Shown piece by piece: positions 2,932-26,459 of a stretch of 30,692 nucleotides of DNA. Source of the stretch: a virus; the IMG/VR virus record IMGVR_UViG_3300020411_002295, positions 1 to 30,692 of that record; one strand, written 5' to 3'. The notes below the pieces were generated by a model, which was not told the origin of the DNA, did not search any database, and saw nothing but the letters and a program-made list of their open reading frames with translations. Made by a program: the position numbers and the translations under genes. Position 1 is the stretch's first letter. The number at the start of each line of letters is the position of its first letter.

Positions 2932-4267
2932 GAGAGTTTTTGGATTCAATGAAGGTTATCATGATGCTGGTGTTTGTATTTTAGATGACCATGAAATTAT
3001 TTATGCTTCCCATAGTGAGAGATATTCTGGTGTAAAGAATGACAAAACTTTACATGATAGTCAAATATCTAAATCTGGCAATTGTGACACAATTGCTTTT
3101 TATGAAAATTATTTTCTAAAAAATACAAGAAGATTATACTCAGGTCAAGGATGGACTAGAAAAAGGACTTCTATTCCATATGATGTTTCTTTTACTCACC
3201 ATGAAAGTCATGCGGCAGCAGGATATTACACTTCAATTTTTGATGAATGTAATGTTTTAGTTATTGATGCGATAGGTGAATGGGATACAATATCTATCTG
3301 GTATTGTAAAAATTTAAAAATGAAAAAAATTAAATCTTTTAAATATCCATATTCACTAGGTCTTTTATATTCAGCAATTACTCATAGAATAGGTTTAAAA
3401 CCAAATGAGGATGAATATATCACAATGGGGATGTCTGCTTTTGGAGAACCGAAATATGATATGGAGTTTTTACTTGAGAAAAATAATCACAAAGGAGTTG
3501 GTCACATTTTTCCAGAAGCAAAGTTTGAAGATCTTGCTGCATCTGTCCAAAATTTATATGAAAAAGAATTATTAAAATTAATTGAAAAATATTGTCATCA
3601 TGAAAATTTAATATTGATGGGCGGGTGTGCATTGAATTGTGTTGCTAACAGTAAAATAAAAAATAAAAATATTTGGATTATGCCAAATCCAGGTGATTGT
3701 GGTTCTTCTTTGGGTGCTGCCGCATTAGTTAATAAGAAAAAATTAAATTGGAAAAATCCATATTTGGGTTATAACTTATTGAGATCAAATCCAAAAAAAG
3801 TTGTGGATGAATTATTAAAAAATAAAGTTTGTGGTGTTGCATCTGAAAAGGCAGAGTTTGGTCCTAGAGCATTAGGAAATAGAAGTTTACTTGGTGATTG
3901 TAGATATCCAATTAAAGATACAGTCAATAATATAAAACGTAGACAAAAATTTAGACCATTTGCGCCCGCTATTTTGGAAGAATATGCAAATGATTATTTT
4001 GATGGACCTATGAATGAATATATGCAATTTGTATCTAAAGCAAAACATGATTATGATTCTGTAACTCATGTTGATGGTACAGCAAGAGTACAAGTGGTTA
4101 AAAAAAGTTGTTCATCCGTTATAAGAGAAATACTAGAATTGTGGTATGATAAAACTGGAATTCCAATGTTATTAAATACATCTTTAAACATAAAAGGAAT
4201 GCCAATAGTAAATGATGAAAGGGATATTAAAATTTTTATGGAAAAATACAATGTTAAAGTATTCTGA
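2930..4267 (+). CDS. NodU/CmcH-family O-carbamoyltransferase
   Basis: This 445-residue protein has the two-domain signature of the family that moves a carbamoyl group from carbamoyl phosphate, through carbamoyl-adenylate, onto a hydroxyl. At the N-terminus are the HSERYSGVKND segment (family EERFSRxKxD) and the HHESHAA metal and active-site motif (H90, H91, H94). Next come DAIGEWDT, EDEYITMGMSAFGEP and the GGCALNCVAN strand. The C-terminal YrdC-like half contains EFGPRALGNRS (E309-S319), FRPFAP and LNTSLN. It is shorter than the 550-600 residues usual for NodU or CmcH. Carbamoyltransferases are known in T4-like cyanophages. It opens the rightward run and probably decorates a sugar or another hydroxyl made by the neighbours. 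Confidence 0.9.
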   Translation: MRVFGFNEGYHDAGVCILDDHEIIYASHSERYSGVKNDKTLHDSQISKSGNCDTIAFYENYFLKNTRRLYSGQGWTRKRTSIPYDVSFTHHESHAAAGYYTSIFDECNVLVIDAIGEWDTISIWYCKNLKMKKIKSFKYPYSLGLLYSAITHRIGLKPNEDEYITMGMSAFGEPKYDMEFLLEKNNHKGVGHIFPEAKFEDLAASVQNLYEKELLKLIEKYCHHENLILMGGCALNCVANSKIKNKNIWIMPNPGDCGSSLGAAALVNKKKLNWKNPYLGYNLLRSNPKKVVDELLKNKVCGVASEKAEFGPRALGNRSLLGDCRYPIKDTVNNIKRRQKFRPFAPAILEEYANDYFDGPMNEYMQFVSKAKHDYDSVTHVDGTARVQVVKKSCSSVIREILELWYDKTGIPMLLNTSLNIKGMPIVNDERDIKIFMEKYNVKVF

Positions 4268-5324
4268 AATTAAAAGTGTTCATATTGAACCAACTCAAAA
4301 ATGTCAAGCGGCTTGTCTTCAATGTGATAGAAATATTAATGGTGGTGAAGATAATCCTTATCTTACAGGAGCGGAGTTAACTACATTAGACTATTATATA
4401 ATTTTTAAAAAGAAATTTATTAAACAATTGGATCATATGTATATGTGTGGAAATCTTGGTGATCCTTGTATTTCATCTGATAGTTTGAATGGATTTGAAT
4501 ATTTTAGAATTGAAAATAATAATATACACCTTTCAATGAATACAAATGGTGGGGCACAAGATGTCGAATGGTGGAAAGAGTTGGCAATTATCATGGGAAG
4601 AAAAGGTCATGTAACTTTTTCTTTTGATGGATTAAAAGACACAAATCATTTATACAGACAAGGCGTTAATTGGGAAAATTGTATGAAAAATTCTGCTGCA
4701 TTTATTTCTAAAGGTGGTAGAGCACGTTGGGAATTTATTATATTTGATCACAATCAGCATCAAATAGAGGAAGCAAGAAAGTTGGCAAAAAAGATGATGT
4801 TTGATGATTTTAGAATAAAGAAAACAGGAAGATTTTTTTCTACTCTTAAACACAAAGGAAAAGAATCTCATCAGGGAGTGAATAGAAAGGGACAAGAAAC
4901 ACAGAAATTGGAAAAACCAAAAGAGGAATATGTTAATAGTGCGTTAAAGCAAGAAAAGGATCTTGTCAATAAATATGGAAGTATGGATCATTATTATGAT
5001 GTAACTGATATTAATTGTAAAGCTATAGAAAAATCAGAAATATTTGTCACTGCTGAAGGTCATGTATTTCCTTGTTGTTGGTTGGGTGGACAACAATACA
5101 AATGGTATTGGAAACCAAAAGAGGCACCAATATGGAATATGATCAAAGATCCAAATAATATTAACGCCATATATAATAATTTAGAAGATATTATAAGTGG
5201 AGAATTTTTTAATATGATAGAAAAATCTTGGTCATGTTCTAGTGTAAAAGAAGGTAAACTAAAAGTTTGTGCTAACAAATGTGGCACAGGGTTTGATGCA
5301 TATAAATCACAATGGGAAGAATGA
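4251..5324 (+). CDS. Radical SAM enzyme, subfamily B, with C-terminal auxiliary-cluster domain
   Basis: Start chosen at ATG 4251, because this places the CxxxCxxC cysteines at 18, 22 and 25, exactly as in the related proteins at 11757 and 17904. An upstream in-frame start at 4212 is less likely. The motif KCQAACLQC binds the 4Fe-4S cluster that cleaves SAM. Instead of GGEP it has MCGNLGDP. Further subfamily marks are MNTNGG, FSFDG and WEFIIFDHN. The C-terminus has DINCKAIEKSE, then VFPCCW, then a late pair of cysteines (KVCANKCGTG), a SPASM or twitch-like auxiliary Fe-S site. A Lys/Glu-rich segment in between (roughly residues 200-235) looks like a flexible linker. Substrate unknown. Confidence 0.82.
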   Translation: MLKYSEIKSVHIEPTQKCQAACLQCDRNINGGEDNPYLTGAELTTLDYYIIFKKKFIKQLDHMYMCGNLGDPCISSDSLNGFEYFRIENNNIHLSMNTNGGAQDVEWWKELAIIMGRKGHVTFSFDGLKDTNHLYRQGVNWENCMKNSAAFISKGGRARWEFIIFDHNQHQIEEARKLAKKMMFDDFRIKKTGRFFSTLKHKGKESHQGVNRKGQETQKLEKPKEEYVNSALKQEKDLVNKYGSMDHYYDVTDINCKAIEKSEIFVTAEGHVFPCCWLGGQQYKWYWKPKEAPIWNMIKDPNNINAIYNNLEDIISGEFFNMIEKSWSCSSVKEGKLKVCANKCGTGFDAYKSQWEE

Positions 5325-5325
5325 T

Positions 5326-6186
5326 ATGAAATTAGCCATTTATGGTGATAGTTTTGCAGATGCATTATTTACACAAGATAGTCATAGATATTTCCAATGG
5401 CCAAATATACTTGCGGACAAATTAAATGTTTACGATTATTCCAATTATGCTTTAGGAGGAACTTCATTAAATTTTTCTTACATGAAATTTTTAGAATCTC
5501 ATGAAAAATATGATAAAATAATATTTGTCGTGACAGATTCAAATAGATCAAGTATTATACAAGAATTTCCGGCTTATAATTTTCAATATCATTTTTCTTT
5601 TTTTGCAGAAAGGCCTTTTGATTTTAATCTAAAAATAAATCAACATATTGACAATCAACAATCTATTAGAGCTGAAAGTGATGAAGGAATTGAATCCACT
5701 GATAAGCTTAAAGAGAAGCATATGGATAAAAAGGTACTTGAAAATGAAATGTATAAGGATAAAATTTATCGAGGTTCATATAATTTAACTTATTATGCTA
5801 TGATAGATAGTATAATGTATAGGCGGCATGATGCTATTTTAATTCATGCTTTTCCAAATCCGCGTGATCCTCATTTTAAAAAGATGAAAAAGAAAAATTT
5901 TAGTTATTATACGTCACCATGTATGAACAATATACAAATGATTCAATATCATAATGACTCCCATTTTGATCAAGTTTTATGGCCTGAAATAGAAAATAGC
6001 TATTTAAAAACTGTTAATCAAAAATATTGTCATATGTCAATACCTCAAAATGAGTGTTTCGCTGAATATGTTTATAAGCATATAACTGAAGATGATTTTG
6101 ATTTAAATTACACCTTACGTATAGAAAATATTAATGAATTTTATCCATTTTCACCTGTAGAAGAAGATCCATTTATTTATGAATAA
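5326..6186 (+). CDS. SGNH/GDSL-family hydrolase-like protein
   Basis: Start at ATG 5326, seven bases after GGAAG and directly following the previous stop; in-frame starts upstream would overlap the radical SAM gene. The block I motif YGDSFAD (G7, D8, S9) is at the N-terminus and supplies the nucleophile. GGTSLN fits block II with the oxyanion Gly. IIFVVTDSNR fits the block III region. The C-terminal HMSIPQNE may give the catalytic His, but the usual Asp three residues before it is not evident (YCH). The family hydrolyses esters, such as acyl or acetyl groups on glycans or lipids. Residues about 105-145 are a charged insert rich in Lys and Glu. It is the most diverged of the three SGNH proteins here. 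Its end (TATGAATAA) overlaps the start of the small ORF at 6179. Confidence 0.65.
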   Translation: MKLAIYGDSFADALFTQDSHRYFQWPNILADKLNVYDYSNYALGGTSLNFSYMKFLESHEKYDKIIFVVTDSNRSSIIQEFPAYNFQYHFSFFAERPFDFNLKINQHIDNQQSIRAESDEGIESTDKLKEKHMDKKVLENEMYKDKIYRGSYNLTYYAMIDSIMYRRHDAILIHAFPNPRDPHFKKMKKKNFSYYTSPCMNNIQMIQYHNDSHFDQVLWPEIENSYLKTVNQKYCHMSIPQNECFAEYVYKHITEDDFDLNYTLRIENINEFYPFSPVEEDPFIYE

Positions 6187-6304
6187 AAAATTTAAAAAAT
6201 TATTTCTGAAATTAAAAATTAGATATAAAATTTTTATTTTTAAAATCAAAAATATAAAAAAGAAAAAATATAAACAAAAAGATCAGATATTTATATATGA
6301 CTAA
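6179..6304 (+). CDS. Hypothetical 41-residue Lys-rich protein
   Basis: ATG 6179 to TAA 6302-6304 encodes 41 residues, 15 of them Lys, alternating with Ile, Phe and Leu (for example KLFLKLKIRYKIFIFKIK). It overlaps the stop of the upstream gene by 8 bases and the start of the next gene by 8, which is the same spacing style as the certain genes nearby. Without it, 6187-6296 would be the longest non-coding gap in the island. No Shine-Dalgarno sequence is seen, and AT-rich DNA can produce such a frame by chance. If real it would be a basic, amphipathic or beta-prone peptide. No family recognised. Confidence 0.35.
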   Translation: MNKKFKKLFLKLKIRYKIFIFKIKNIKKKKYKQKDQIFIYD

Positions 6305-7163
6305 AACAATACTTGTAGCTGGTGATAGTTATTCTTCTCGATGGTGGAAAACGTGGACTCATAAAATGGACAATATGGTTATCCCCAATATTGATAATCT
6401 ATGGCCTGAAATTATTCTCGATACATTACAACCAACTGGTGAGTTTGCAGCTACAGATGATTATTTAATTTTAGAACAAAAGTGCAGAGGTGGTGTTAGT
6501 AATGATTGGATTGTTGATAAAATAGTTCCATATATTATAGACAATCATGATAAAATTAAATATGTCTTAATATTGTGGACAGATTTTTTTAGATTTTCCA
6601 CACATAACTCTAGAATTCAACACGTATTTTGTTCATGTAGAGCGGGAGAAATAAAAGAAAATCTTTTAAATAACGGTGTTTCTGAATTTATATCAGAAGT
6701 GATTATGGACAGAGTGCGTTTTGCAGATTTTATGAAACAACAATTTTCTTTAGAATTTCATAAATATGATCCAGATGTTGTTGATCAAGTGGTGAAAAGA
6801 GCAGTATTACATCAATTTAAACTGGTAGAAATGGTATGTAAAAACTATAATATAGAATATTATTTTATGCAAGGAGTTACTCCTGTTGCTCCTCTTTGTG
6901 ATAGTGATCGTCCAGAATATAATCCAGAAGATTGTTTATTAAAATTAACAGAAGAAAAGGTATATAAAAGTTTAATCAAATATGAAAAATATATAGACAC
7001 TAGTAGATTTATAGGCTGGCCTCTTTATCATAAATGTGGAGGATTTTCATTTGATCATTTGACACATGAAAAATTAGAATATCATGTTAGTGAAAATGAC
7101 AGACATCCTAACCAATTGGGACATGAATTAATTGCTGATAAATTTTTAGATAAACTTAGATGA
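6297..7163 (+). CDS. SGNH/GDSL-family hydrolase
   Basis: This 288-residue protein carries the full SGNH set. Block I is VAGDSYSS (D10, nucleophile S11). Block II is RGGVSND, with the oxyanion Gly and Asn. The block III-like strand is YVLILWTDFFRF. Block V is DRHPNQLGHELIA, with D268 and H270. This is a strong family call: a serine esterase or acylhydrolase, often acting on O-acyl groups of sugars. It is a close paralogue of the next protein (7160-8023): both share ILWTxxxRF, YNIEYYFM and IGWPxY. The end overlaps that gene's start (ATGA at 7160-7163), so the pair is probably translationally coupled. No signal peptide is visible, so it probably acts in the cytoplasm. Confidence 0.8.
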   Translation: MTKTILVAGDSYSSRWWKTWTHKMDNMVIPNIDNLWPEIILDTLQPTGEFAATDDYLILEQKCRGGVSNDWIVDKIVPYIIDNHDKIKYVLILWTDFFRFSTHNSRIQHVFCSCRAGEIKENLLNNGVSEFISEVIMDRVRFADFMKQQFSLEFHKYDPDVVDQVVKRAVLHQFKLVEMVCKNYNIEYYFMQGVTPVAPLCDSDRPEYNPEDCLLKLTEEKVYKSLIKYEKYIDTSRFIGWPLYHKCGGFSFDHLTHEKLEYHVSENDRHPNQLGHELIADKFLDKLR

Positions 7164-8023
7164 AACAAAAAATTTTATTAGCTGATGGGTGTAGTTATAC
7201 ATCTTCTTCAGGATTTCCTTACAAAGAAAAAGAATGGCCGTTTTTATTATCTGAAAAATTAAATTTAAAATGTAAATCTTTAGGAGGTCCAGGATCGAGT
7301 AATGATAAAATTACATCTCGTGTTATTGAATATATAATAAAAAATCATGAAAAAATAAAAATAGTTTGTATATTATGGACTGAATGGTTGAGATTTGATA
7401 TATTAAAAACAATAGATGTACAATTTAAATGTTTTTGTTCTAAACAAGGTCATAATTATGAGGATAGAAAAAGTACATTTTTACCTTATTTGGAAAAAAG
7501 ACTTTCTCGTTTTTCTAAAATGGATAAAGAAAATCGTGATAGAGTTTATAATCATGATATGAAATGTTTTGATTTAAGAAATGATTTATTTAAATTGTAT
7601 GAAAAATATGTTGAAAATGAAAATCCAATGTATAAAAAGGATATTGTAAAAAATATTATTAGACATTTTGTTACAAATAATATTATAGCATTGCAAAATA
7701 TTTGTAGAATATATAATATAGAATATTATTTTATGAATGGTATGGATCCTGATATTCCTTTATTTCCTGATGAAAGTTGTTTAATTCAAGGTAGTGAACA
7801 TAAAGTTTATGAATCAATATATGAATATCAATCATTGTTTGATACAAGTAAATACATAGGGTGGCCAGTATATTCTGAATTTGATGGATATTCTTTTGAT
7901 TCTCTTACAAATGATCAAGAAAAATATCATATAAGTAGTTTTGATAAACATCCTAATAAAGATGGACACAAATTAATTAGTAACACTTTTTATGAAAAAA
8001 TAAAAAATGAAAATGCCAAGTGA
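7160..8023 (+). CDS. SGNH-family hydrolase, paralogue with GCS block I
   Basis: This 287-residue paralogue of the preceding protein has block I changed from GDS to DGCSYT (G10, C11, S12). The nucleophile Ser is kept. Block II is GGPGSSND. The strand CILWTEWLRF, the segment YNIEYYFMNG, the segment YIGWPVY and block V DKHPNKDGH (D262, H264) are all present, so the catalytic triad is complete. GCS variants are common in phage SGNH proteins and do not by themselves mean inactivity. Tandem duplication followed by divergence is the simplest origin. The end overlaps the following radical SAM gene by 17 bases. Confidence 0.75.
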   Translation: MKQKILLADGCSYTSSSGFPYKEKEWPFLLSEKLNLKCKSLGGPGSSNDKITSRVIEYIIKNHEKIKIVCILWTEWLRFDILKTIDVQFKCFCSKQGHNYEDRKSTFLPYLEKRLSRFSKMDKENRDRVYNHDMKCFDLRNDLFKLYEKYVENENPMYKKDIVKNIIRHFVTNNIIALQNICRIYNIEYYFMNGMDPDIPLFPDESCLIQGSEHKVYESIYEYQSLFDTSKYIGWPVYSEFDGYSFDSLTNDQEKYHISSFDKHPNKDGHKLISNTFYEKIKNENAK

Positions 8024-9398
8024 AACATTTTGTGCATTGCCTTGGATGCATTTAAGTACAAGGCCTGATGGAGCGATGAGAGTATGTTGTACTGCAAATG
8101 CTTCTTCTGTTGGAAAAACTGATTTTAAAGTTCACGGTGGAAAATTGGGAGAATTAAGAACAGAAGATGGTAAGCCTGCTAATTTAAATGTAGTTGGATT
8201 GAATGAATCTTGGAATAACTCTTACATGAAAAATGTTAGAAAACAAATGTTGGCGGGAGAAAAACCTGCTAGTTGTATGAAATGTTTTAAAGAGGAAGAA
8301 GCGGGACATAGAAGTAAAAGACAATGGGAAACTGCATATTGGTTAGAAAGATTTAGTTTAGATGATATAATAGGTGAGACTAAAGAAGATGGTGAAATAC
8401 CACCAAAAATAAGATATATTGATTTGCGTTTAGGTTCTAAATGTAATTTAAAATGTATTATGTGCAGCCCACATGACTCATCAGCATGGATACCAGATTG
8501 GAAAGAATATTATCCACAAGTAAAAAGTGAGTCACTTAAATATACTTCACAATGGCATGGTGGTGGTGCTGACCAACACGGAGCAACATATAATTGGTAT
8601 AAAAACAATCCTAAGTTTTGGGATGATTTATACAGTCAGATACCTAACATTTATCAATTATACTTTGCTGGTGGTGAAAGTACTATAATAGAAGAACATT
8701 ATACTTTACTTGAAAAAGTAATAGAAATGGGATATGCTGAACAAATTGAATTGAGATACAATAGTAATGGTGTTGAAATGCCAGATAGATTATTTAAATT
8801 GTGGGACAAATTTAAACGTGTAAGATTTCATTACAGTATAGATTCAGTTGGCATTATGAATGATTATATAAGATATCCTAGCAAGTGGAATCATCAAGTA
8901 AATCAAATGCACTTACTTGATAATACAGATGATAATGTTGAGGTTACTCTTGCATGTGCAGTACAAGCATTAAATATATATTATATACCAGACTTCATTA
9001 AATGGAAATTAAATGAAGGATTTAAAAAAATTAATATGTGGCCTTTTGGTGCGGGAGGTGTAAATTATCATTTTGTATATCATCCACCACAATTGAATGT
9101 TAAAATTTTACCAAAATGGTTTAAAGATGAGTGTCATTTAAAATATGTTGATTTTTATGGATGGTGGAAGAATAATTGGGAAAAAGGTATTCCATCTTGG
9201 CACAAAGGAAAAGTAACATATGAAGAATGGCAAGATGCAAATTATGGAATAAAAAGACTTAAAGGATTGATTTCATTTATGAAATCAGAAGATTGGTCAA
9301 ATAGAATGGTCGAATTTAAAGAATACATAACAATTATGGATAGGGTTCGAAAAACTAATTTTAAAAAAACTTTTCCAGAAATGGCAGAGTTATTATGA
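8007..9398 (+). CDS. Radical SAM enzyme, subfamily A, N-terminal twitch-like domain
   Basis: The 463 residues start with a small cysteine domain: FCALPWMH (C9), CC at 27-28 and SCMKCF (C90, C93). This is the pattern of radical SAM proteins whose auxiliary-cluster (twitch-type) domain sits at the N-terminus. The radical SAM core has SKCNLKCIMC (C146, C150, C153), AGGES (GGE at 222-224) and HYSIDSVG, followed by YIRYPSKWN, which marks this subfamily. The C-terminus ends in MDRVRKTNF then FPEM, also shared. Family members carry out 5'-deoxyadenosyl radical chemistry; the substrate here is unknown. BtrN is a characterised twitch enzyme that oxidises an aminocyclitol, so a sugar-like substrate is possible. 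ATG 8013 is an alternative start. Confidence 0.85.
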   Translation: MKMPSETFCALPWMHLSTRPDGAMRVCCTANASSVGKTDFKVHGGKLGELRTEDGKPANLNVVGLNESWNNSYMKNVRKQMLAGEKPASCMKCFKEEEAGHRSKRQWETAYWLERFSLDDIIGETKEDGEIPPKIRYIDLRLGSKCNLKCIMCSPHDSSAWIPDWKEYYPQVKSESLKYTSQWHGGGADQHGATYNWYKNNPKFWDDLYSQIPNIYQLYFAGGESTIIEEHYTLLEKVIEMGYAEQIELRYNSNGVEMPDRLFKLWDKFKRVRFHYSIDSVGIMNDYIRYPSKWNHQVNQMHLLDNTDDNVEVTLACAVQALNIYYIPDFIKWKLNEGFKKINMWPFGAGGVNYHFVYHPPQLNVKILPKWFKDECHLKYVDFYGWWKNNWEKGIPSWHKGKVTYEEWQDANYGIKRLKGLISFMKSEDWSNRMVEFKEYITIMDRVRKTNFKKTFPEMAELL

Positions 9399-9754
9399 GA
9401 GTAATGGTTGATATGTCTGCAACAATATTACACCACGGACATATTAGATTGTTAAAAAAAGCAAAAGAAGTAGGTGATGTTATTATTGCACTGGCAACAG
9501 ATGACGAAATAAAAATACATAAAAAATTTGTTCCTTTATTAAATTATAAAAATAGAGAAGAAATTTTAAAATCAATAAAATACGTAGATGACGTAGTACC
9601 ATCTCCGATGATAATAGATGATAATTTTTTAAAAAAACATAATTGTAAATTTTTAATACACGGTGATGATAATCAAAATTTAGTAAGTAAAAGCAAATTA
9701 ATTATTTTTCCTAGAACTAAAGATATTAGTAGTTCAAATTTAAGAAATGAATAA
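9395..9754 (+). CDS. TagD-like cytidylyltransferase
   Basis: This 119-residue protein is the usual size for glycerol-3-phosphate or ethanolamine-phosphate cytidylyltransferase-type enzymes. It has the HxGH nucleotide-transfer motif in ILHHGHIRLL (H13, G15, H16) and the C-terminal signature RTKDISSSN (R107-N115). ALATDDE and NYKNREEILKSIKYVD match strand and helix positions of the family. The predicted reaction is CTP plus an alcohol phosphate giving a CDP-alcohol and pyrophosphate. It therefore can supply an activated polyol or amino alcohol for glycan or lipid building. It overlaps the preceding radical SAM gene by 4 bases. The exact substrate (glycerol, ethanolamine, a sugar phosphate) cannot be told. 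Confidence 0.82.
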   Translation: MRVMVDMSATILHHGHIRLLKKAKEVGDVIIALATDDEIKIHKKFVPLLNYKNREEILKSIKYVDDVVPSPMIIDDNFLKKHNCKFLIHGDDNQNLVSKSKLIIFPRTKDISSSNLRNE

Positions 9755-9784
9755 ATCAAATTCAAAATTAACGCAAAGGAACAT

Positions 9785-10432
9785 ATGTTTGAATTAATAG
9801 ATTATTCTAAAAGCGCAAGTCATTGTCAAAGAAATTGGGATTATACACAAAAAATACCAAAAAAAGACATTGACATAATAGTAAGCACTGCAATAAATAT
9901 GCCAACAAAACAAAATTTAAAGACATATAAATTGTTAGTTAGTGATGATTTAGATTTTAATCATCAGTTATATGAATTAGCTACTGATCCTTTAAATCCA
10001 AAATCATTTGACCGTCCACTTCCTCACAGAAATATACAAGTATATGCTCCTCTTTTATTAATGTTTTTAAGAATACCTTTGGATCTTGATAAAATTGATC
10101 CTAATATACTAGAAAGATCTCATTTTAATCGAATGTCTCAAGGAGAAAGTTCTACCCATTATTCTATGTCAGTAGGTATTGCTTCAGGAGCAGCAGCGCT
10201 AGCTGCAAATCAAATGGGATATTCAACAGGGTTTTGTCAATGTTTTGATCATAAAAATCTTTCTTTGTTTTTTAAAGAAAAAAATATTCAATATTTTAAT
10301 TATCACAATTTAATAACACTTGGCATTGGAAAACCTCTTGAAAAATATAATTGGAATGATTTAGTATATAATGATATTCATTCAGGCACAGTGCCAATTT
10401 ACCATAAACAAATTGATGTACAACATATCTAA
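9785..10432 (+). CDS. Nitroreductase-family flavoprotein
   Basis: This 215-residue protein has the layout of FMN-dependent nitroreductases. An N-terminal helical segment (IVSTAINMPTKQN) corresponds to the family ARxAPSxxN phosphate-binding region. The core helix SVGIASGAAALAANQMGYSTGFCQCF is the usual dimer and FMN region, and the C-terminal LGIGKP strand also fits. The 30-base gap before it (9755-9784) holds only a clear Shine-Dalgarno, AAAGGA, five to six bases before ATG 9785, so this gene has its own strong translation start. It abuts a radical SAM gene (stop and start overlap at 10432). A second nitroreductase lies at 22407. A redox step on an enzyme product, or electron supply, are both possible. 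Confidence 0.8.
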   Translation: MFELIDYSKSASHCQRNWDYTQKIPKKDIDIIVSTAINMPTKQNLKTYKLLVSDDLDFNHQLYELATDPLNPKSFDRPLPHRNIQVYAPLLLMFLRIPLDLDKIDPNILERSHFNRMSQGESSTHYSMSVGIASGAAALAANQMGYSTGFCQCFDHKNLSLFFKEKNIQYFNYHNLITLGIGKPLEKYNWNDLVYNDIHSGTVPIYHKQIDVQHI

Positions 10433-14639: not shown

Positions 14640-15427
14640 TTTCTAATTACTTTGAAAAAAATCATTTATTTTATGTGACAATAAATCCTGATCAACATAA
14701 AAATATTCGAATATTATCTCACCTTAATAATCCAGATATTAAGAGGTATAATTCTTATGTGAAGTATCATAATTACACTCGTCCAATTGAAGAATTTTAT
14801 CAAAGTGCTGAAAAAATATTCAAAGTGATACAATATTGTGATACTAGAATAGTTGATTTTCAAGGAGACTTACTGTTCAAATCTAAAGAGTGGGGGCAAT
14901 TGTGTAGTATTGTTAAAGAAGTATATCAAAATGGAAATAAAAATATTCCTATATTAAGAAAAACTTCTAATGGTTTCAACGCACATCCCGGAAATCATTT
15001 AGCTTTTGCTATGTTGTTTTTAGGAATACCTATGCGTTGTTTTTTTACTATAACAAATGCTTGGAAACATCATGTAACTAAAATTAGTACAATACATGAA
15101 ACAATATGGAACCTAACACAGATAAAAAAAATATTAAAAACTAGAGATATAGAGTTTTGGATTACAGATTTGGATGGGCAATTGGTTCCAAACATTTTTC
15201 CAAAAATACAAGGAAAATCTAGTTGGAAAAGTTATCAAAATGGTGATTGTGATTGGCCATGGGAAGAAGTTGAACAATATAATCAAGATCCTGTAAAAGA
15301 ATTTGATTTAGATAGCGTAGTACCAAAGCGTAAATTTATAAATGAAACTATAATGAAAAATAATAAGTTTGCATTTTTACTTACTGGAAAATCTGAAGAT
15401 GATAATTTTTTTAAACAGTCAGCATAA
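14636..15427 (+). CDS. Hypothetical protein with HPG motif
   Basis: I do not recognise a characterised family for these 263 residues. A central block NGFNAHPGNHLAFAML, then GIPMRCFFTITN, resembles ILHPGGSRRKVLGI then KPVYFVITDF in the unknown protein at 21590-22399. The two are therefore probably distant relatives. A conserved HPG followed by basic residues and a strand recalls ParB-like nuclease or kinase folds, but this is not enough for a call. There is no signal peptide or membrane segment. The gene starts inside the stop of the CMP-sugar synthetase (ATGA, 14636-14639). Its last 17 bases overlap, tail to tail, the minus-strand radical SAM gene. Confidence 0.7.
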   Translation: MISNYFEKNHLFYVTINPDQHKNIRILSHLNNPDIKRYNSYVKYHNYTRPIEEFYQSAEKIFKVIQYCDTRIVDFQGDLLFKSKEWGQLCSIVKEVYQNGNKNIPILRKTSNGFNAHPGNHLAFAMLFLGIPMRCFFTITNAWKHHVTKISTIHETIWNLTQIKKILKTRDIEFWITDLDGQLVPNIFPKIQGKSSWKSYQNGDCDWPWEEVEQYNQDPVKEFDLDSVVPKRKFINETIMKNNKFAFLLTGKSEDDNFFKQSA

Positions 15428-16613
15428 AATTAGTAATTTTTGGATCTAAATAATTTTCAAATTTTTGATTTCTTACAGTATCAAATGTCTTTGTATCTTG
15501 TAAAAATTGTTGTTGTTTGATTTTCTTATTTTCAATATTTACATTAATACAATAATCAATATATTTTTTAATTTTGTTTATTGCGGATTCACTACCTTCT
15601 AAATCAACATTTGCATAATTTTCTTTTAAATTTTGTAATATGTTTTTTGGTAAAAATTTTATATCCAATACACTATTTTCTGGTCCTGGATCTGGTATAA
15701 TTTTCCATTTGATATTTTTATCTAATGTACCAATAAGATCAATTAGTTGTATTAAGTTGTAACAATTATAGATTGTTAAAACAGAGCAAATGTGAATAGA
15801 AACATTATCATTTGTATTATTAATAATCTTTACTAAATTATTGTGGAGTTTATTCCATTTATAAGGATATCTAATGTATTCATAAATTTTTTCAGTTCCA
15901 TCAATACTGATAGTAATTGTACTCTTTCTAAATGAATTAAAAGTTTGAATTACTTTTTTATTAACTATGGTTCCATTAGTTGTTACATTTAAATCAATAT
16001 TTTCATTTTTAATATTTTCACATATGTTCCAAAAATTTGTATTAATTAATGGTTCACCACCAGTAAATTTTATACTGTCTAATTGTGGAGAAATGTCTAT
16101 GATATTTTTGATAATTGTTTCTGATATATCAAAAAAGCTTTTTACACCAAACATATCTTGATTAGCATGATCTTGTCCCATGTTTAAATATTGGGGAATG
16201 GGTAAATTTAATTTTTTTATTTCATTATAATCTATTCTCAATTTATTGCTATTTTTCATATTGCACATTCTACATCTTAAATTACATTGTTCTCCAAGTG
16301 TAATATCAATATTTTTTAATATAGGGTCTATTAATATTTTACCATCTTCAATAGCTGTAAGTCTGGGACTATAAATATTATTATCTTCAAGATTATGACA
16401 ATAATTACACATTGTATTTTTTTTATTATTTTTTATATCATGAATTAAATCACCAAATGTTTCTGAAAAATTATGAATAGTGTTCGATGTGATATCAACT
16501 TCTTTCCTGTTTATTGGTTTTACGTTACAACAAGGTGCTACAAGCATTTTTTGAGGATTACTGTTACTACTTTTTATTGCTAAAGTATTGAATGGATATG
16601 GACAATAGGACAT
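15411..16613 (-). CDS. Radical SAM enzyme, subfamily A, on the opposite strand
   Basis: The 400 residues follow the subfamily A plan: SYCPYPFN (C4), PCC (C28, C29), MCNYCH, core EQCNLRCRMC (C110, C114, C117), FTGGEPLI, VTTNGT and ISIDGTEKIYEYIRYPYKW. The C-terminal tail is KTFDTVRNQKF. It is the only minus-strand gene between 2932 and 26459. It overlaps its right-reading neighbour at 15427 by 17 bases, and its start codon is separated from the next rightward start by one base. No Shine-Dalgarno sequence is seen upstream of ATG 16613. It is closest in motif details to the proteins at 12793 and 16615. Expression would need its own promoter, which must lie inside the gene at 16615. Confidence 0.84.
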   Translation of the reverse strand: MSYCPYPFNTLAIKSSNSNPQKMLVAPCCNVKPINRKEVDITSNTIHNFSETFGDLIHDIKNNKKNTMCNYCHNLEDNNIYSPRLTAIEDGKILIDPILKNIDITLGEQCNLRCRMCNMKNSNKLRIDYNEIKKLNLPIPQYLNMGQDHANQDMFGVKSFFDISETIIKNIIDISPQLDSIKFTGGEPLINTNFWNICENIKNENIDLNVTTNGTIVNKKVIQTFNSFRKSTITISIDGTEKIYEYIRYPYKWNKLHNNLVKIINNTNDNVSIHICSVLTIYNCYNLIQLIDLIGTLDKNIKWKIIPDPGPENSVLDIKFLPKNILQNLKENYANVDLEGSESAINKIKKYIDYCINVNIENKKIKQQQFLQDTKTFDTVRNQKFENYLDPKITNFMLTV

Positions 16614-16614
16614 A

Positions 16615-17904
16615 ATGAATGAATTAAATTTTTGTGTATTACCGTTTATACATTTTGCAACACAAACAGATGGAACATCTAGACTATGTTGTAAAGTACC
16701 AAGAGAGTTTCCAATAACGGATTCTGAACAAATACCTTATAATTTAAATAAAGATAATATTTCAGAGATATTTTATAGTATATATATGAAAAATCTCAGA
16801 AAAAAATTTTTAGAAGATGATTCATTTCGACCTCAGCAATGTGAAGTTTGTTATAAAGAGGAAGCATGTGGAATTGAAAGTAAAAGGCAAAGAGAAAATA
16901 AAAAATGGAAAAATGAAATTAATCATGTAAAAAATGATCCAAAAATATTATATTTTGATTTGAGACTTGGTAATTTATGTAATTTAAAATGTAGGATGTG
17001 CTGGCCACATTTTAGTAGTCAAATCTATAAAGAGCAAATATATTTCAATAATAAAAATAAAAAAGTTTGGTATAATTCTTTAGAAGAAATTTTACCATGG
17101 TGGGAAAATAAAAACTTCTGGAAAAATTTTCAAGAATTATTAATAGATAATATTGAATTAAATTTTGTTGGTGGTGAACCATCATTACATGAAAATATGT
17201 ATGACATTTTAGAATACTTATGTGAAAATAATTTTTCTAAAACAGTTTCATTAAAAATAACAACAAACTTGACTAACATTCAAGAAAGATTTCTCAAGCT
17301 TTTGCCCCATTTTAAAAATGTGAATATTGATGTCAGTATTGATGGAATTGATAAAACACAAGAGTATATTAGATATCCATCAAAATGGTCTATCATAGAG
17401 AATAATTTATTAAGATTGACAAAAATTAAAAATGAAAAAATACATTTTACAATTAGTACTTGTGTACAATTATATAATATTTTTACATTAATTGATTTGA
17501 TGAAATGGTATGTGAATTTTACTTTTAAGCCACCACACATCTTACAAATGGGACTGATGTTAAATCTTGTATATGATCCATCAAGATTAAATATAAAAAA
17601 TTTAAATGATGAAGGCAAAGAAATAGCAGAAAATTATTTAAGAGAATGTTTAATATACATAAGAAAAAATGCTATTGATAATATTGATATAGTCAAACCA
17701 GAAATAATTAAAAATGACAAATGGAAGTGGCATCAATACAGAGACTTGAGAGAGAGAATAAAAGGCATAATAAATTATATGAACAGTAATGATAGAAATG
17801 AAAAGGAATCAAAGGATTTCATTGATTATACAGAACAACTAGATATTCATAGAGAACAAAATTTTAATGAAATAGTTCCAAACTATAGAAAGTATGTAAC
17901 ATAA
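16615..17904 (+). CDS. Radical SAM enzyme, subfamily A, N-terminal twitch-like domain
   Basis: This 429-residue protein has FCVLPFIHFATQTDG (C7), LCCK (C25, C26), QCEVCYKEE, core NLCNLKCRMCWPHFSS (C122, C126, C129), FVGGEPSL, VSIDGIDKTQEYIRYPSKW and tail LDIHREQNFNE. Of the others, it is most like 8007-9398, sharing FDLRLGNLCNLKC versus IDLRLGSKCNLKC, and the KRQ and MKNLRK segments of the N-domain. A Shine-Dalgarno AGGA at 16607-16610 lies four bases before ATG 16615. It is encoded within codons 2-3 of the divergent gene on the other strand. The gene ends on the start codon of the split radical SAM gene at 17904. Substrate unknown. Confidence 0.85.
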   Translation: MNELNFCVLPFIHFATQTDGTSRLCCKVPREFPITDSEQIPYNLNKDNISEIFYSIYMKNLRKKFLEDDSFRPQQCEVCYKEEACGIESKRQRENKKWKNEINHVKNDPKILYFDLRLGNLCNLKCRMCWPHFSSQIYKEQIYFNNKNKKVWYNSLEEILPWWENKNFWKNFQELLIDNIELNFVGGEPSLHENMYDILEYLCENNFSKTVSLKITTNLTNIQERFLKLLPHFKNVNIDVSIDGIDKTQEYIRYPSKWSIIENNLLRLTKIKNEKIHFTISTCVQLYNIFTLIDLMKWYVNFTFKPPHILQMGLMLNLVYDPSRLNIKNLNDEGKEIAENYLRECLIYIRKNAIDNIDIVKPEIIKNDKWKWHQYRDLRERIKGIINYMNSNDRNEKESKDFIDYTEQLDIHREQNFNEIVPNYRKYVT

Positions 17905-18521
17905 TGTGGACAAGGGATAGTATAGAATGGTTGGATATAGAACTTACAAGTTTTTGTAATATAAAATGTCCTGGTTGTTTAAGACAAGAAAGTTTTGAGA
18001 GGGTAGAATCTATATTAAACAAAAGTTATATAAAACTTGAAGATTTAAAAAAATGGATTCCTACTCCTGAGTACTTACCAAATTTAAAATATATTAATTT
18101 TTGTGGTTCTGTTGATGAACCTACAACACATCCTGAAATTTTAGAAATTGTGGATTATTTTGGTTCAATAGTCAATGGTAAATCAGAAAATGCAGGAGTA
18201 AATATTGCTACAAATGGTTCAACAAGAACACCAGAGTTTTGGAAAGAGTTGGGTAAAAAAAGATGTTCAGCTTTTTTTGGAATAGATGGTATAGACCAAG
18301 AATCATTACAAAAATATAGAGTTGGATCTAATTTTAAAAAGGTTCAAGAAAATTGGCGAGCATTTATTAAAGCCGGTGGTCATGCTCAGTGGCAATTTAT
18401 AGTATTTGAACATAATGAACATCTTTTGGAAAAAGCAAAACAAATGTCAATTGATGAAGGATTTGAAAGAATTAGAGTCATATATTCACATAGAAATAAA
18501 AGTGGAGAAGTTAAAAAATGA
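17904..18521 (+). CDS. Radical SAM core, subfamily B, 5' half of a split gene
   Basis: The 205 residues contain a complete subfamily B radical SAM core: SFCNIKCPGC at C18, C22 and C25, FCGSVDEPTTHP in place of GGEP, IATNGS, FFGIDG and WQFIVFEHN. The frame ends at TGA 18519-18521 after GTT AAA AAA. Full-length relatives at 4251 and 11757 continue into a PCC auxiliary-cluster domain. Here that domain is encoded in the next gene, in the -1 frame, starting at the overlapping ATGA. A run of six A's stands just before the stop; one more A would fuse the two frames. This may be a two-subunit enzyme, a -1 frameshifted product, a recent mutation or a sequence error. Confidence 0.8.
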   Translation: MWTRDSIEWLDIELTSFCNIKCPGCLRQESFERVESILNKSYIKLEDLKKWIPTPEYLPNLKYINFCGSVDEPTTHPEILEIVDYFGSIVNGKSENAGVNIATNGSTRTPEFWKELGKKRCSAFFGIDGIDQESLQKYRVGSNFKKVQENWRAFIKAGGHAQWQFIVFEHNEHLLEKAKQMSIDEGFERIRVIYSHRNKSGEVKK

Positions 18522-18835
18522 TAGAATGTAGATATGGAAAACTGAATAGATTATTCATAAATCATTTAGGTGAACTTATACCATGTTGTTATTTAAATTC
18601 CGAATCTTTGAATATGGCAGCGGGCAATTTACCAAAAACATTGTTTGGTGAATTTAATGAAAAATATGATAATAGTTTATATAATAAAAGTATTGAAGAA
18701 ATTATAAATGGTCCTATGTTTAATGGTATTATGACATCTTGGGAAACATCACAACCAGTAAAAAAATGTAAAGAAAAATGTGAGTTTAAAGATAGAGATA
18801 AGTTTATTGATAATTTTCATGAAAAGGAAAAGTGA
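18518..18835 (+). CDS. Auxiliary Fe-S cluster domain, subfamily B, 3' half of a split gene
   Basis: This 105-residue frame starts at ATG 18518, inside the stop of the preceding gene. It lines up with the C-terminal domain of the full-length relatives: IECRYGKLNRLFIN, then ELIPCCYL, then KKCKEKCEF, matching INCKAIEKSEIFVT, VFPCCWL and KVCANKCGT of the 4251 protein. All five cysteines expected for the auxiliary cluster are kept, which argues that the domain is still in use rather than decaying. A free protein of this kind would be unusual. It may be translated by reinitiation or joined to the core by frameshifting. The end overlaps the next gene (TGATG). Confidence 0.75.
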   Translation: MIECRYGKLNRLFINHLGELIPCCYLNSESLNMAAGNLPKTLFGEFNEKYDNSLYNKSIEEIINGPMFNGIMTSWETSQPVKKCKEKCEFKDRDKFIDNFHEKEK

Positions 18836-20025
18836 TGAAATTTGATTTTTCTGCTATTAATTTATTAGATAGTCAACAATTAACAACAACGTGGGATGTT
18901 GGAAGAAGGTGTAATTATGATTGTACATATTGTCCACCACATAGACATGATGGATTTTCACCTTATGCAGATTTAGATACTTTGATTAAAACAGGTAAAT
19001 TTGTTTTAGAGTATGCAGATTTATTAATGAGATATAAAAAATTTCAAAAATTAAATATAAATTTTACAGGAGGTGAACCAACTTTAAATCCTCACTTTAT
19101 TGAATTTGGAAGTTGGATGAGAAAAGAACATAATCAATATTGGGATGATAATGGTAAACCACAAAAATATAGACTTAATTTAACTATCACTTCAAATGGT
19201 CATTTTGGTCCAAAGATGAGAGAAAACATTTTAAAAAATTATGGATTTATTACTATCAGCTATCATTGTGAACAAATTGATGCGGTGAAAGAAAATGTAG
19301 TTAAAAATATAAAATATCTTCATGATAATAATTTTGCATTAAAAGTTAATGTGATGTTTCATGTTAAATATTTTGAAGAATGTAAAGAATTGTGTAAAAA
19401 ATTACATGAGTGGGGTGTAACATATGTTCCTAGAATGATAGGAGAACATGAGAACCCAAGATATGCTCATAAGTATTCTGAAGAACAATTGGATTGGATG
19501 AAAAATTATTGGAAAAACATTAATAATAATTTGAATAATAAAACAAATACATCAAAACAATGTGATAAAGTTGCAGAAACAAAACCAAAAGAGAAAAAAT
19601 TTGCAAGACAATTAGGAAGACCTTGTTGTGGAAATAGAGTCATAGAGACATTAAATAATGATGGTAATTGGGAAAAAACAAAATTTATTCAACAGACAAA
19701 ATTTAAAGATTGGTATTGTTCAGTAAATTGGTTTTTTCTACATATTGAGCAACAAACAGATAAAATATTTCATCATCAAACCTGTCAAGCTAAGTTTAAT
19801 GGAACAAGAGGACATATTGGCACAATATCTAATTCTGATGAAATTTTAAATAAATTATATCAAGATATATCATCTAATAGAATGCCAATAATAAAATGTC
19901 CTTTGGGTCCTGGTGATTATTGTGGTTGTGGATTGTGTACTCCAAAAACACAAGATTTGGATGTGTTTAAAAATTTAATGACTAGTCATGTGAAAGACAC
20001 AAATATTTTTAATAATTCTTTTTAA
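18835..20025 (+). CDS. Radical SAM enzyme, subfamily C, with Cys-rich C-terminus
   Basis: Start at ATG 18835 in TGATG, nine bases after AAGG; a GTG at 18832 is in frame but less likely. The 396-residue protein has TWDVGRRCNYDCTYC (C26, C30, C33), FTGGEPTL and ITSNGH. The C-terminal part is Cys-rich: RPCCGN, DWYCSV, HQTCQAKFNGTRGHIG and CPLGPGDYCGCGLCTP. There are enough cysteines for at least one auxiliary Fe-S cluster. The protein at 20563-21603 shares the WxxGRxCNYxCxYCxP core and a weakened form of the tail (LPLWPGDKTYG), so the two are paralogues with different auxiliary-site content. A Lys-rich stretch near residues 238-260 is a likely linker. Substrate unknown. Confidence 0.84.
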   Translation: MKFDFSAINLLDSQQLTTTWDVGRRCNYDCTYCPPHRHDGFSPYADLDTLIKTGKFVLEYADLLMRYKKFQKLNINFTGGEPTLNPHFIEFGSWMRKEHNQYWDDNGKPQKYRLNLTITSNGHFGPKMRENILKNYGFITISYHCEQIDAVKENVVKNIKYLHDNNFALKVNVMFHVKYFEECKELCKKLHEWGVTYVPRMIGEHENPRYAHKYSEEQLDWMKNYWKNINNNLNNKTNTSKQCDKVAETKPKEKKFARQLGRPCCGNRVIETLNNDGNWEKTKFIQQTKFKDWYCSVNWFFLHIEQQTDKIFHHQTCQAKFNGTRGHIGTISNSDEILNKLYQDISSNRMPIIKCPLGPGDYCGCGLCTPKTQDLDVFKNLMTSHVKDTNIFNNSF

Positions 20026-20029
20026 TACA

Positions 20030-20566
20030 ATGGATTTAATATATAAAAAATTGAATATTGAAATTTATGATGATGGTAAATGGATTATTAAAAAATTTTT
20101 AAAATCTTGGAATTCTGATAATGCAGAGTACAATAAAAAACAATTACATGGCATAAATCATAAATTTTGTATAGAAGATTATAAATTATTTCAAAGTAAA
20201 AATCCAGATTTTGTAGAGATAGTTTCTTTTGAAAGTAATAATGATTGTGATATTGTTATTATGCCAAAAATCAAAGGAAAAGAATGGAACCAAGTAAAAG
20301 AAGATCTTCCTAAAGATGTTATCTATAATTTTTGTATTGTTAATAGTTTTAAGTGGATAAGAGCATTTCTTGATTTTTCTTTGGGGAATGATAGGGTATT
20401 TTATCATGGAGATTTGAGGCCTGCAAATGTTTTTATAGATAATAATTATAATCCTTGTGTTATAGATCCAGATTCTATGGAATGGATTTCGAGAGAAAAT
20501 TTTTTATTAAATATTCAAAAACAACAAGCGGACTTTTTTACTGAATTTTATAGGTTTTATAAATGA
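20030..20566 (+). CDS. Small protein-kinase-fold or phosphotransferase-like protein
   Basis: The 178 residues carry the catalytic core of the kinase/APH fold: YHGDLRPANVFIDNN (H126, D128 as catalytic base, N133), then CVIDPDSMEW, where D146 or D148 would bind metal in place of DFG. VIMPKIKGKEW looks like the hinge strand. The N-lobe is short, with WIIKKF as a candidate beta-3 Lys strand and no clear glycine-rich loop. It is much smaller than the 260-300 residues usual for these enzymes. It sits between two subfamily C radical SAM genes, four bases after one and overlapping the other by 4. It could phosphorylate a small molecule or lipid-linked sugar, or be a binding protein only. Confidence 0.6.
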   Translation: MDLIYKKLNIEIYDDGKWIIKKFLKSWNSDNAEYNKKQLHGINHKFCIEDYKLFQSKNPDFVEIVSFESNNDCDIVIMPKIKGKEWNQVKEDLPKDVIYNFCIVNSFKWIRAFLDFSLGNDRVFYHGDLRPANVFIDNNYNPCVIDPDSMEWISRENFLLNIQKQQADFFTEFYRFYK

Positions 20567-21603
20567 ATTTAGATTTTACTAAAATACCTTTTGATGATAT
20601 AGAACTTGTAGGAACAAAAACTATGCTTTATCATGATACATTCACTGTGTCATGGTTACTTGGTAGATTCTGTAATTACAAATGTTCATACTGCTGGCCA
20701 TATGCTAGATCAGACAAAAAAGATCATAGACCTACAGAATTATGTTTATCTACCATAGATGAAATAAAACGTCAAGCAAGAAACAATGGATTTAATAGTT
20801 TTAATTGGTCTTTGTCTGGTGGAGAACCTACCTTTCATCCTGGGTATTTAAATATTTTACAACATTTGGCTGATGATAATATTAATTGTAAAAGACAAAG
20901 AATTCACATGACATCAAACTGCTCACGTAAAATGAGTTGGTTTGAAACATATGTGAAATATGCAAAACAATTTGATAGAGCATCCATTACCGCATCTGCA
21001 CATTTTGAACATTTAAATACAGAAAAGAAAATAGAAGAATTTGCTGACAAATTAGTTTTCTGTCAAGACAATGGTATTCGCATTACAATAAATATGGTAA
21101 TGGTTCCTGAGAGATTTTTTAAGTTGTGTGATCATGTTTTATATTTTAAAGAAAGAGGAATACATACAACATTAAAACCACAATCAAATCCAACTGCTAC
21201 AAAGGTAGTAGAAGGATACACAGATGGTCAATTAGATATATTATATAATGAATCAAAAACTACAACTATGGAAATAGAATTAATTGATTCAAAAGGTGAA
21301 GTTTATGAAATGGATCAAGCAGAAAGATTCAATGCGTTTAATTTTAATAATTTCAGGGGGTGGGATTGTTCGTCTGGCCATCGCAGTATCATTATCCGCG
21401 AGCCTGATGGGAGCATTAAGCGGTCTTATTCTTGCAGAGATTTACCTTTAGGCAACATAGAAACAGGGTTTAAATTGTTTGATAGTCCACAACCTTGTTT
21501 ATCAGATGCTTGTGTAAGTTCTGCGGATAGTAAAATACCTAAACGCAAACCTGGAGTCAAGTTACCATTATGGCCAGGAGATAAGACATATGGACTCCAT
21601 TAA
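20563..21603 (+). CDS. Radical SAM enzyme, subfamily C
   Basis: This 346-residue protein has SWLLGRFCNYKCSYCWPY (C37, C41, C44), LSGGEPTF and MTSNCSRK. The C-terminal part has GWDCSSG, SYSCRDLPLGN and PCLSDACVSS, giving four cysteines for a probable auxiliary cluster, and LPLWPGDKTYG at the end. It is a paralogue of 18835-20025 with a shorter tail and fewer cysteines. A stretch of about 87 bases (21354-21440), coding the first part of the auxiliary region, has about 53% GC. It uses CGC and CGG arginine codons, unlike the AGA-rich surroundings, which suggests a patch exchanged with another genome. The start overlaps the kinase-like gene by 4 bases and the end overlaps the next gene by 14. Confidence 0.84.
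   Translation: MNLDFTKIPFDDIELVGTKTMLYHDTFTVSWLLGRFCNYKCSYCWPYARSDKKDHRPTELCLSTIDEIKRQARNNGFNSFNWSLSGGEPTFHPGYLNILQHLADDNINCKRQRIHMTSNCSRKMSWFETYVKYAKQFDRASITASAHFEHLNTEKKIEEFADKLVFCQDNGIRITINMVMVPERFFKLCDHVLYFKERGIHTTLKPQSNPTATKVVEGYTDGQLDILYNESKTTTMEIELIDSKGEVYEMDQAERFNAFNFNNFRGWDCSSGHRSIIIREPDGSIKRSYSCRDLPLGNIETGFKLFDSPQPCLSDACVSSADSKIPKRKPGVKLPLWPGDKTYGLH
21354..21440. other. GC-rich patch inside a radical SAM gene
   Basis: By direct count 46 of 87 bases are G or C (53%), against an estimated 28% around it. The change is sharp at both ends and lies wholly inside the reading frame of 20563-21603, which it does not disturb. Three of the arginines it encodes use CGC or CGG, whereas arginine elsewhere in the window is nearly always AGA. 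This is consistent with a short recombination tract from a higher-GC relative. Confidence 0.6.
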
Positions 21604-26436: not shown

Positions 26437-26459
26437 AAAACTATAGAAATGGAGACTTA

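Follow-up and report, generated by a model that had tools for sequence, protein, structure and literature searches.

Ten radical SAM genes in the window

IMGVR_UViG_3300020411_002295 is a linear fragment of 30,692 bases in the IMG/VR database, which was analyzed whole and is called the window below. Between positions 4251 and 21603, the window carries ten genes for radical S-adenosylmethionine (rSAM) enzymes, and T4-like neck genes gp13 and gp14, recognized with Pfam and PHROG, adjoin this series at the end of the island. Three of the ten, g07, g11 and g25, make up a core trio that recurs in many other viruses and in some bacteria of the predatory type, from the Bdellovibrionota.

A search with PF04055 (Radical_SAM, Pfam) gave exactly ten domains at 4284-21111, spread over about 17 kb, each in its own open reading frame (ORF). 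The E-values ranged from 6.9e-16 to 9.8e-6, and eight of the ten domains scored above the curated cut-off. The carriers are g07, g11, g14, g15, g16, g19, g20, g21, g23 and g25; g19 lies on the minus strand and the others on the plus strand. CxxxCxxC was found inside the PF04055 domain in all ten. A twitch-like auxiliary set (C, CC or C, CxxC to CxxxxC), predicted to bind a cluster, was present within the same ORF in nine, and the tenth set is located in g22, not in g21. In the family alignments, the cysteines of the predicted clusters were invariant or at least 90% conserved.

The N-twitch subfamily was assigned by the whole-protein score for NF033640 (NCBIfam), with a cut-off of 170 bits. Five enzymes passed it at 183-423 bits: g11 (8007..9398, 423 bits), g14 (10432..11778, 260 bits), g16 (12769..13902, 183 bits), g19 (15411..16613, 212 bits) and g20 (16615..17904, 337 bits). 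Their auxiliary cysteines (C, CC, CxxC) are placed ahead of the SAM domain. NCBIfam gives this subfamily without an assigned function. The cut-off was not reached by g07, g15, g21, g23 and g25. Among these, g07 (4251..5324; C31/35/38 and C269/288/289/353/357), g15 (11757..12815; C254, C273/274, C334 and C338) and g21 match one another in blastp at 8e-22 to 3e-33. This second group possesses C-terminal twitch-type cysteines and a CGxxGDP-like motif (CGSVDEP in g21) instead of GGEP. The longest ORF of g07 opens at 4212; since the homologues begin at the methionine at 4251, this ATG is the likely start. The third group consists of g23 (18832..20025; PF04055 5.5e-10), which has eight C-terminal cysteines in its family alignment, and g25 (20563..21603), an rSAM enzyme of a highly widespread and highly conserved viral family. 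These two match each other in blastp at 6e-12. Thus, the number of enzymes, the three subfamilies and the coordinates given in the original prediction were correct, as was its statement that all ten keep CxxxCxxC and nine or ten an auxiliary cysteine set.

g21 (17904..18521, plus strand) encodes 205 aa with the rSAM core domain only (PF04055 8.3e-11). The following gene, g22 (18518..18835, plus strand), encodes a stand-alone auxiliary-cluster (SPASM/twitch) domain of 105 aa (PF13186 1.3e-6), and the two genes overlap by 4 nt (ATGA). A single lost base cannot explain this arrangement, because many stops interrupt the reading frame ahead of g22. Furthermore, in the viral locus L084 the homologues of g21 and g22 (7651-8247 and 9047-9358, with 73% and 70% identity) are separated by a gene for a 283-aa SGNH-like protein. 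The stops and the separated homologues rule out a one-base frameshift artefact. Both halves are under purifying selection, with a ratio of nonsynonymous to synonymous substitution rates (dN/dS) of 0.14 for g21 and 0.14 for g22. Judged from these sequences, g21 and g22 are the product of a genuine, conserved gene fission.

The core trio in viruses and Bdellovibrionota

The g25 family gave at least 593 viral matches in IMG/VR. Identity among the 80 sequences kept was 60-87%, and the mean column identity in an alignment of 23 sequences was 70%. For the g07 family, a search with the alignment gave at least 587 IMG/VR matches. Single-sequence viral searches with g15 and g23 were unproductive. In 50,697 cultured-phage records, g25 had no match, and homologues of g11, g15 and g07 gave only remote matches. 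In cultured phages, tblastn with the neighbouring families cl24 and c130 was unproductive; c130 was not found there.

Among the viral loci seeded with g25, 44 have enough flank. The rSAM genes point in the same direction in 39 of these, and in 24 no rSAM gene comes after g25. The loci seeded with g07 show the recurring order cl24 - cl29 - (c130) - g07 - (g15-type) - g11. Here, cl24 is a DxD, GT-A-like protein family, cl29 is a methyltransferase-like family, and c130 is a conserved 74-aa protein encoded directly upstream of g07-type genes. Among 79 such loci, cl24 was found in 75, cl29 in 65, g11-type genes in 64 and c130 in 54. In the window, the counterpart of cl29 is g03, and g05, g02 and g01, all DxD proteins, perhaps stand in for cl24. 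In the close relatives L003-L010, homologues of g05, g04 and g03 come after the rSAM genes and share their strand. A contig named as part of an Acidimicrobiaceae metagenome-assembled genome (MAG), L091, carries the L005-L010 block, with most genes at up to 99% protein identity. L091 is thus probably of phage origin and was assigned to the bacterial MAG in binning.

The bacterial homologues of g25 come mainly from Bdellovibrionota MAGs, where their contigs reach 936 kb, and g25 was present in 17 of the 291 Bdellovibrionota genomes sampled. In 20 loci of the Bdellovibrionota type, g11-type genes were located within 3 kb of g25 in 16, g07-type genes in 15 and cl24 in 6; cl24 or cl29 often comes after the trio genes. 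The question raised earlier, whether the subfamilies co-occur as a block outside this phage, is thus answered for the g07, g11 and g25 types, which cluster within a few kb in Bdellovibrionota. Nor are the homologues single: long same-strand rSAM series were found in viruses and blocks in bacteria. These results show block inheritance of the trio in many viruses and in Bdellovibrionota; individual lineages have supplemented it with rSAM paralogues and tailoring genes of their own. Beside the cl29 gene, two Bdellovibrionota loci encode tandemly repeated units of about 24 residues (FWLPNEVRKLxYKxGR; L105:4723-5562 and L106:10823-11275).

For the closest pairs, dN/dS was 0.08-0.10 for g11, 0.08-0.11 for g25 and 0.09 for g07 (range 0.09-0.22). 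The core genes are therefore under strong purifying selection. For g14, g16, g19, g20 and g23, only distant relatives were present in the fetched loci, and saturated dS limits the dN/dS test. With close pairs of g07, g11, g21, g22 and g25 at 0.08-0.14 and the cysteines kept, chance or decay is ruled out, and the enzymes look functional, as had been proposed. Loss of cluster cysteines in close relatives would have spoken against function; in the family alignments, the cysteines were kept as described above.

The original prediction also stated that no viral system with this density had been described. That claim fails, and uniqueness of the density was rejected. Fifty related virus records contain 2 to 24 rSAM domains each. 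In G008, a relative of 167 kb that encodes T4 neck and terminase proteins, one stretch of 17.35 kb contains 13 rSAMs, and in 90 of the 102 loci that span 15 kb or more, at least five rSAMs fall within that length. Thus, the window is typical of its kind. The PF11649 neck protein was found only in the two nearest long relatives, whereas Terminase_6N was found in 11 of 23 records; thus, the core is not limited to classical T4-like phages.

Earlier descriptions of rSAM-rich phages exist as well. The Campylobacter phages CP220 and CPt10, which are T4-related, have 11 and 12 rSAMs, five of them in an exchangeable module of about 10 kb (PMC2853527). Their proteins differ from those of the window, with 24-30% identity over part of the g07/g15-type proteins and no member of the g25 family. 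Moreover, their rSAMs are paired with an amidinotransferase, whereas those of the window are accompanied by glycosyl, carbamoyl and cytidylyl transferases. The uncultivated T4-like marine genome TARA_ERS488813_N000010 has 12 rSAM genes, interpreted as Fe-S metabolism (PMC5332604). It is alike in rSAM number, compared by description only; families and clustering were not analyzed in that paper.

Setting of the island and neighbouring genes

The gp13-like head-tail adaptor is encoded at 27911..28657 (plus strand; phrog_211 2.9e-41), where the island ends, and the gp14-like neck protein at 28659..30692 (plus strand; PF11649 7.3e-37, phrog_460 1.1e-76). By the presence of gp13 and gp14, the window belongs to a T4-like myovirus; the closest cultured match of gp14 is in cyanophage P-RSM6 (51%). 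The neck match covers residues 3-177 of the gp14-like protein, which has a long additional C-terminal region of about 500 residues with repeats that, by eye, resemble a beta-propeller. In the relative G006, the gp14 counterpart is a 286-aa frame.

In pelagimyophages, a hypervariable "host recognition cluster" extends from VrlC to gp14 and contains lipopolysaccharide-type genes, glycosyltransferases and tail fibres, and rSAM cassettes set two pelagimyophages apart in that island (PMC7029224). The island in the window is alike in ending at the neck genes of a T4-like marine phage and in having glycosyltransferase-like genes; it is dominated by rSAM genes. That report gave no family analysis, core set or bacterial link. 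The best explanation of the window is that it is the 3' end of such a hypervariable host recognition island from an uncultivated marine T4-like myovirus; the gp14 end lies inside the record, and the VrlC end and tail fibres lie beyond its limits.

The neighbour names in the original prediction held in part. The cytidylyltransferases (CTP transferases) g12 (9395..9754, plus strand; PF01467 4.1e-14) and g17 (13899..14639, plus strand; CMP-sugar type, PF02348 1.8e-11), the NodU-type carbamoyltransferase g06 (2930..4267, plus strand; PF16861 4.7e-45, PF02543 1.7e-36, phrog_1601 1.5e-82) and the nitroreductase g27 (22407..23081, plus strand; PF00881 3e-6) are well supported. The same applies to the NAD-dependent sugar epimerase type g33 (minus strand; PF01370 1e-21) and to g30, an Asp/Asn beta-hydroxylase-like 2-oxoglutarate (2OG) oxygenase (24683..25357, plus strand; PF05118 2.8e-8). 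g33 shares the stretch 25927..27128 with the short-chain dehydrogenase/reductase (SDR) g32 (plus strand; PF00106 7.9e-6, just below cut-off).

The other assignments are weak or were made by eye. g13 (9785..10432, plus strand) is nitroreductase-like with a match below cut-off (PF00881 0.0017). In g28 (23066-24082), the N-terminal half looks oxygenase-like, and the GNAT acetyltransferase domain that comes after it has a weak match, also below cut-off. The three SGNH-hydrolase-like ORFs g08, g09 and g10 (5269..8023, plus strand) show GDS-like motifs by eye, with no match in Pfam, PHROG or PDB searches, and sulfotransferase-like g29 (24076..24765, plus strand) has a PRSGSS motif by eye without a Pfam match. 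g24 (20030..20566, plus strand) is an APH-like kinase (PF01636 2.8e-4, just below cut-off). Four genes are glycosyltransferase-like: g05 (2188..2949, minus strand) matches the phrog_1962 glycosyltransferase at E=0.0022; g02 (368..922, minus strand) has no Pfam match and a DxD motif, DLD, that aligns with g05 (33% identity) and g31; g31 (25314..25952, plus strand) aligns with g05 at 28% and likewise has a DxD; and g01 (3-398, minus strand), which resembles g02, is cut by the record end. The cl29-family homologue g03 (916..1686, minus strand) is methyltransferase-like by alignment at 23-48% identity.

Possible product of the pathway

A biosynthetic pathway is very probably encoded here, and the ten-enzyme series probably represents a single conserved one. 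Its best reading, which we hold tentatively, is the tailoring of a surface glycan. The island adjoins gp13 and gp14, like the host recognition cluster of the pelagimyophages (PMC7029224). Genes for a carbamoyltransferase, a CMP-sugar-type cytidylyltransferase and an epimerase are present. The DxD-type cl24 is a near-constant neighbour of g07; one bacterial cl24 member has a weak Glyco_tranf_2_2 match (0.0026). Among the neighbours in bacterial loci, Glycos_transf_2 was found in 12/87, and epimerases also occur. Also in favour are the recurring order around g07, the clustering with g25 in Bdellovibrionota, the purifying selection, and a search of 20 large virus records in which neither PqqD/RRE nor TGT families were found.

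In such a pathway, the cytidylyltransferases g12 and g17 and the epimerase/SDR proteins g33 and g32 would supply nucleotide-activated or carrier-bound sugars. The twitch-cluster rSAMs would then attack unreactive C-H positions of these sugars and oxidize, epimerise, deoxygenate or decarboxylate them, in reactions comparable to BtrN-/BlsE-type chemistry. The DxD-type glycosyltransferases g01, g02, g05 and g31 may transfer the altered sugars, which would be capped with carbamoyl, acyl, acetyl, sulfo and methyl groups. The product might change the host envelope during infection, so that super-infection or re-adsorption is blocked; less likely, it would decorate the virion.

Several results weigh against a glycan. 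Glycosyltransferase family 2 (GT2) genes were located within about 12 kb of g25 in only one of four genomes checked, where 4 of the 17 GT2 genes lie in that range. The glycosyltransferase calls for cl24, g01, g02, g05 and g31 consist of DxD motifs and very weak matches, and PDB sequence searches with the cl24, cl29, g05 and g09 families gave none or marginal matches only. NeuB (PF03102), for nonulosonic/sialic acid synthesis, was detected in none of the 20 large virus records. In addition, c130 lies upstream of g07-type genes in many viral relatives, PLP (pyridoxal phosphate), PP-loop and AMP-binding neighbours indicate amino-acid chemistry, and the rSAM folds match peptide-acting, nucleoside-acting and cofactor enzymes about equally.

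This last point comes from predicted models of g25 (pLDDT 76.5) and g11 (pLDDT 84.9); a comparison with sugar- and peptide-acting rSAMs had been proposed as a check. Both models match rSAMs of all substrate classes. Among the matches listed, the g25 model is closest to the peptide-acting Mmp10 (Z 13.8, 3.5 A, 196 residues), followed by SkfB (13.3, also peptide-acting) and NifB (13.2), and matches BlsE at Z 12.6 (4.9 A, 254 residues). For g11, BlsE (3.5 A, 217 residues), the sactipeptide enzyme 5why and SkfB tie at Z 11.0. Other matches are the peptide-acting anSME, EpeE and SuiB, and viperin, which is nucleoside-acting like BlsE. BtrN and NeoN are not among the 50 structure matches listed, which carries no weight either way. 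BtrN and BlsE, from aminoglycoside and nucleoside biosynthesis, share the rSAM core and a single auxiliary cluster, and BlsE is at or near the top structurally; however, it ties with peptide and cofactor enzymes, at about 12-15% identity, so that the likeness is one of fold only. A PDB profile match of g25 to the ubiquitin ligase RMD5 (E 0.0037) was judged spurious. Judged by these models, the substrate class is not readable from fold comparison. The block, the location of the island and the sugar-type genes agree with the glycan pathway of the original prediction, and the structures do not separate a sugar class from a peptide class.

Modification of a peptide or protein is an unlikely but substantial alternative, in which the rSAMs act on a ribosomal substrate such as c130 or a virion protein, and the 2OG Asp/Asn hydroxylases and GNATs are additional protein modifiers. 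Most characterised SPASM/twitch enzymes act on peptides, and the structure matches include SkfB, SuiB, EpeE and anSME. Asp/Asn hydroxylases, tied with nitroreductases, are the commonest Pfam neighbours among the island genes. c130 itself, with 72-83 aa and no cysteines, is encoded just upstream of g07-type genes; one example is L140:7777-8001, among loci L116-L194. However, neither the window nor the trio-bearing Bdellovibrionota loci contain c130, and it is conserved over its full length, whereas most precursors have a variable core. No other small ORF family is present beside g25. PqqD/RRE, searched with PF05402, was unmatched in the 20 large records. Homologues always found singly and next to peptide precursors had been named as a finding that would argue against glycans; a candidate precursor gene accompanies many g07-type genes in relatives, and none was found beside g25 or in the window.

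We give about the same weight, and thus a rather low one, to a small molecule other than a glycan, amino-acid-derived or cofactor-like. The rSAMs would make it together with PLP, PP-loop and flavin enzymes, and it might be exported or serve the metabolism of the infected cell. L083-L085 fuse an N-twitch rSAM to a PLP aminotransferase-like domain. The fusion (e.g. L084:15632-18073) has 813 aa, and its PLP part, residues 509-813, is 46% identical to cl9, a family that matches valine-pyruvate aminotransferase. The same rSAM and PLP families stand side by side in the Bdellovibrionota loci L107 and L110. Neighbours within the islands include QueC-like PP-loop, AMP-binding, halogenase, P450 and TauD genes, and the CP220/CPt10 modules combine rSAMs with an amidinotransferase (PMC2853527). 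Against this, the most constant neighbours of g07 are the glycosyltransferase-like and methyltransferase-like pair, and the carbamoyl, epimerase and CMP-sugar genes of the window suit glycans better. The rSAM-PLP fusions suit amino-sugar synthesis too: in the making of aminocyclitols, an rSAM oxidation (BtrN) is known to precede transamination. The class I/II aminotransferase type of the fusion also fits amino acids. In another protein of L083, L084 and L085 (e.g. L084:11389-15642), 1417 aa long, two tandem N-twitch rSAM modules come after an N-terminal stretch of about 500 aa; a PDB sequence search with this stretch gave none or marginal matches only.

It is very improbable that the genes serve Fe-S metabolism or anaerobic fitness in general, were acquired independently of one another and share no pathway. 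Host-metabolism or Fe-S roles were proposed for CP220 and marine T4-like phages (PMC2853527, PMC5332604), and g14, g16 and g19 have only distant relatives in the fetched loci; this explanation is opposed by the overlapping genes on the same strand and by g07, g11 and g25 themselves, which viruses and bacteria alike keep in order and pass on as a block. Least credible is a modification of DNA or nucleotides, with 7-deazaguanine-type hypermodified phage DNA or viperin-like chain terminators: QueC-like PP-loop genes stand alongside rSAMs and weak viperin (NCBIfam) and QueE (PHROG) matches exist, but Tgt/DpdA (PF01702) was found in 0 of the 20 large records, viperin scores reach about 40 bits at most (g20, g23, g25) versus a cut-off of 180, and neither chemistry needs ten diverged rSAMs with auxiliary clusters.

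We suggest, with some reserve, that the window carries a previously undescribed multi-rSAM pathway. Several groups of uncultivated marine viruses and the Bdellovibrionota would have its g07/g11/g25 core in common, its product may be a modified surface glycan or a peptide-linked compound of a new class, and it would include rSAMs with a separate auxiliary-cluster subunit. The core in this proposal is the trio, usually with a DxD transferase and a methyltransferase-like protein, and with the 74-aa protein in most viral relatives. In the literature searched, we found no description of the conserved core or of its occurrence in different virus groups, nor of the link to Bdellovibrionota, the split enzyme or the fusions.

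Ocean viruses keep costly, oxygen-sensitive rSAM enzymes in long series and under strong purifying selection. The chemistry of the trio is carried by hundreds of uncultivated viruses and was found in no cultured-phage record searched. The trio is a small testable unit of three genes within a few kb, available in bacterial genomes too, and a natural rSAM split into core and auxiliary-cluster genes offers a direct test of the role of the auxiliary cluster. If the product is a surface glycan, it would be a candidate for a virus-made barrier against competing phages.

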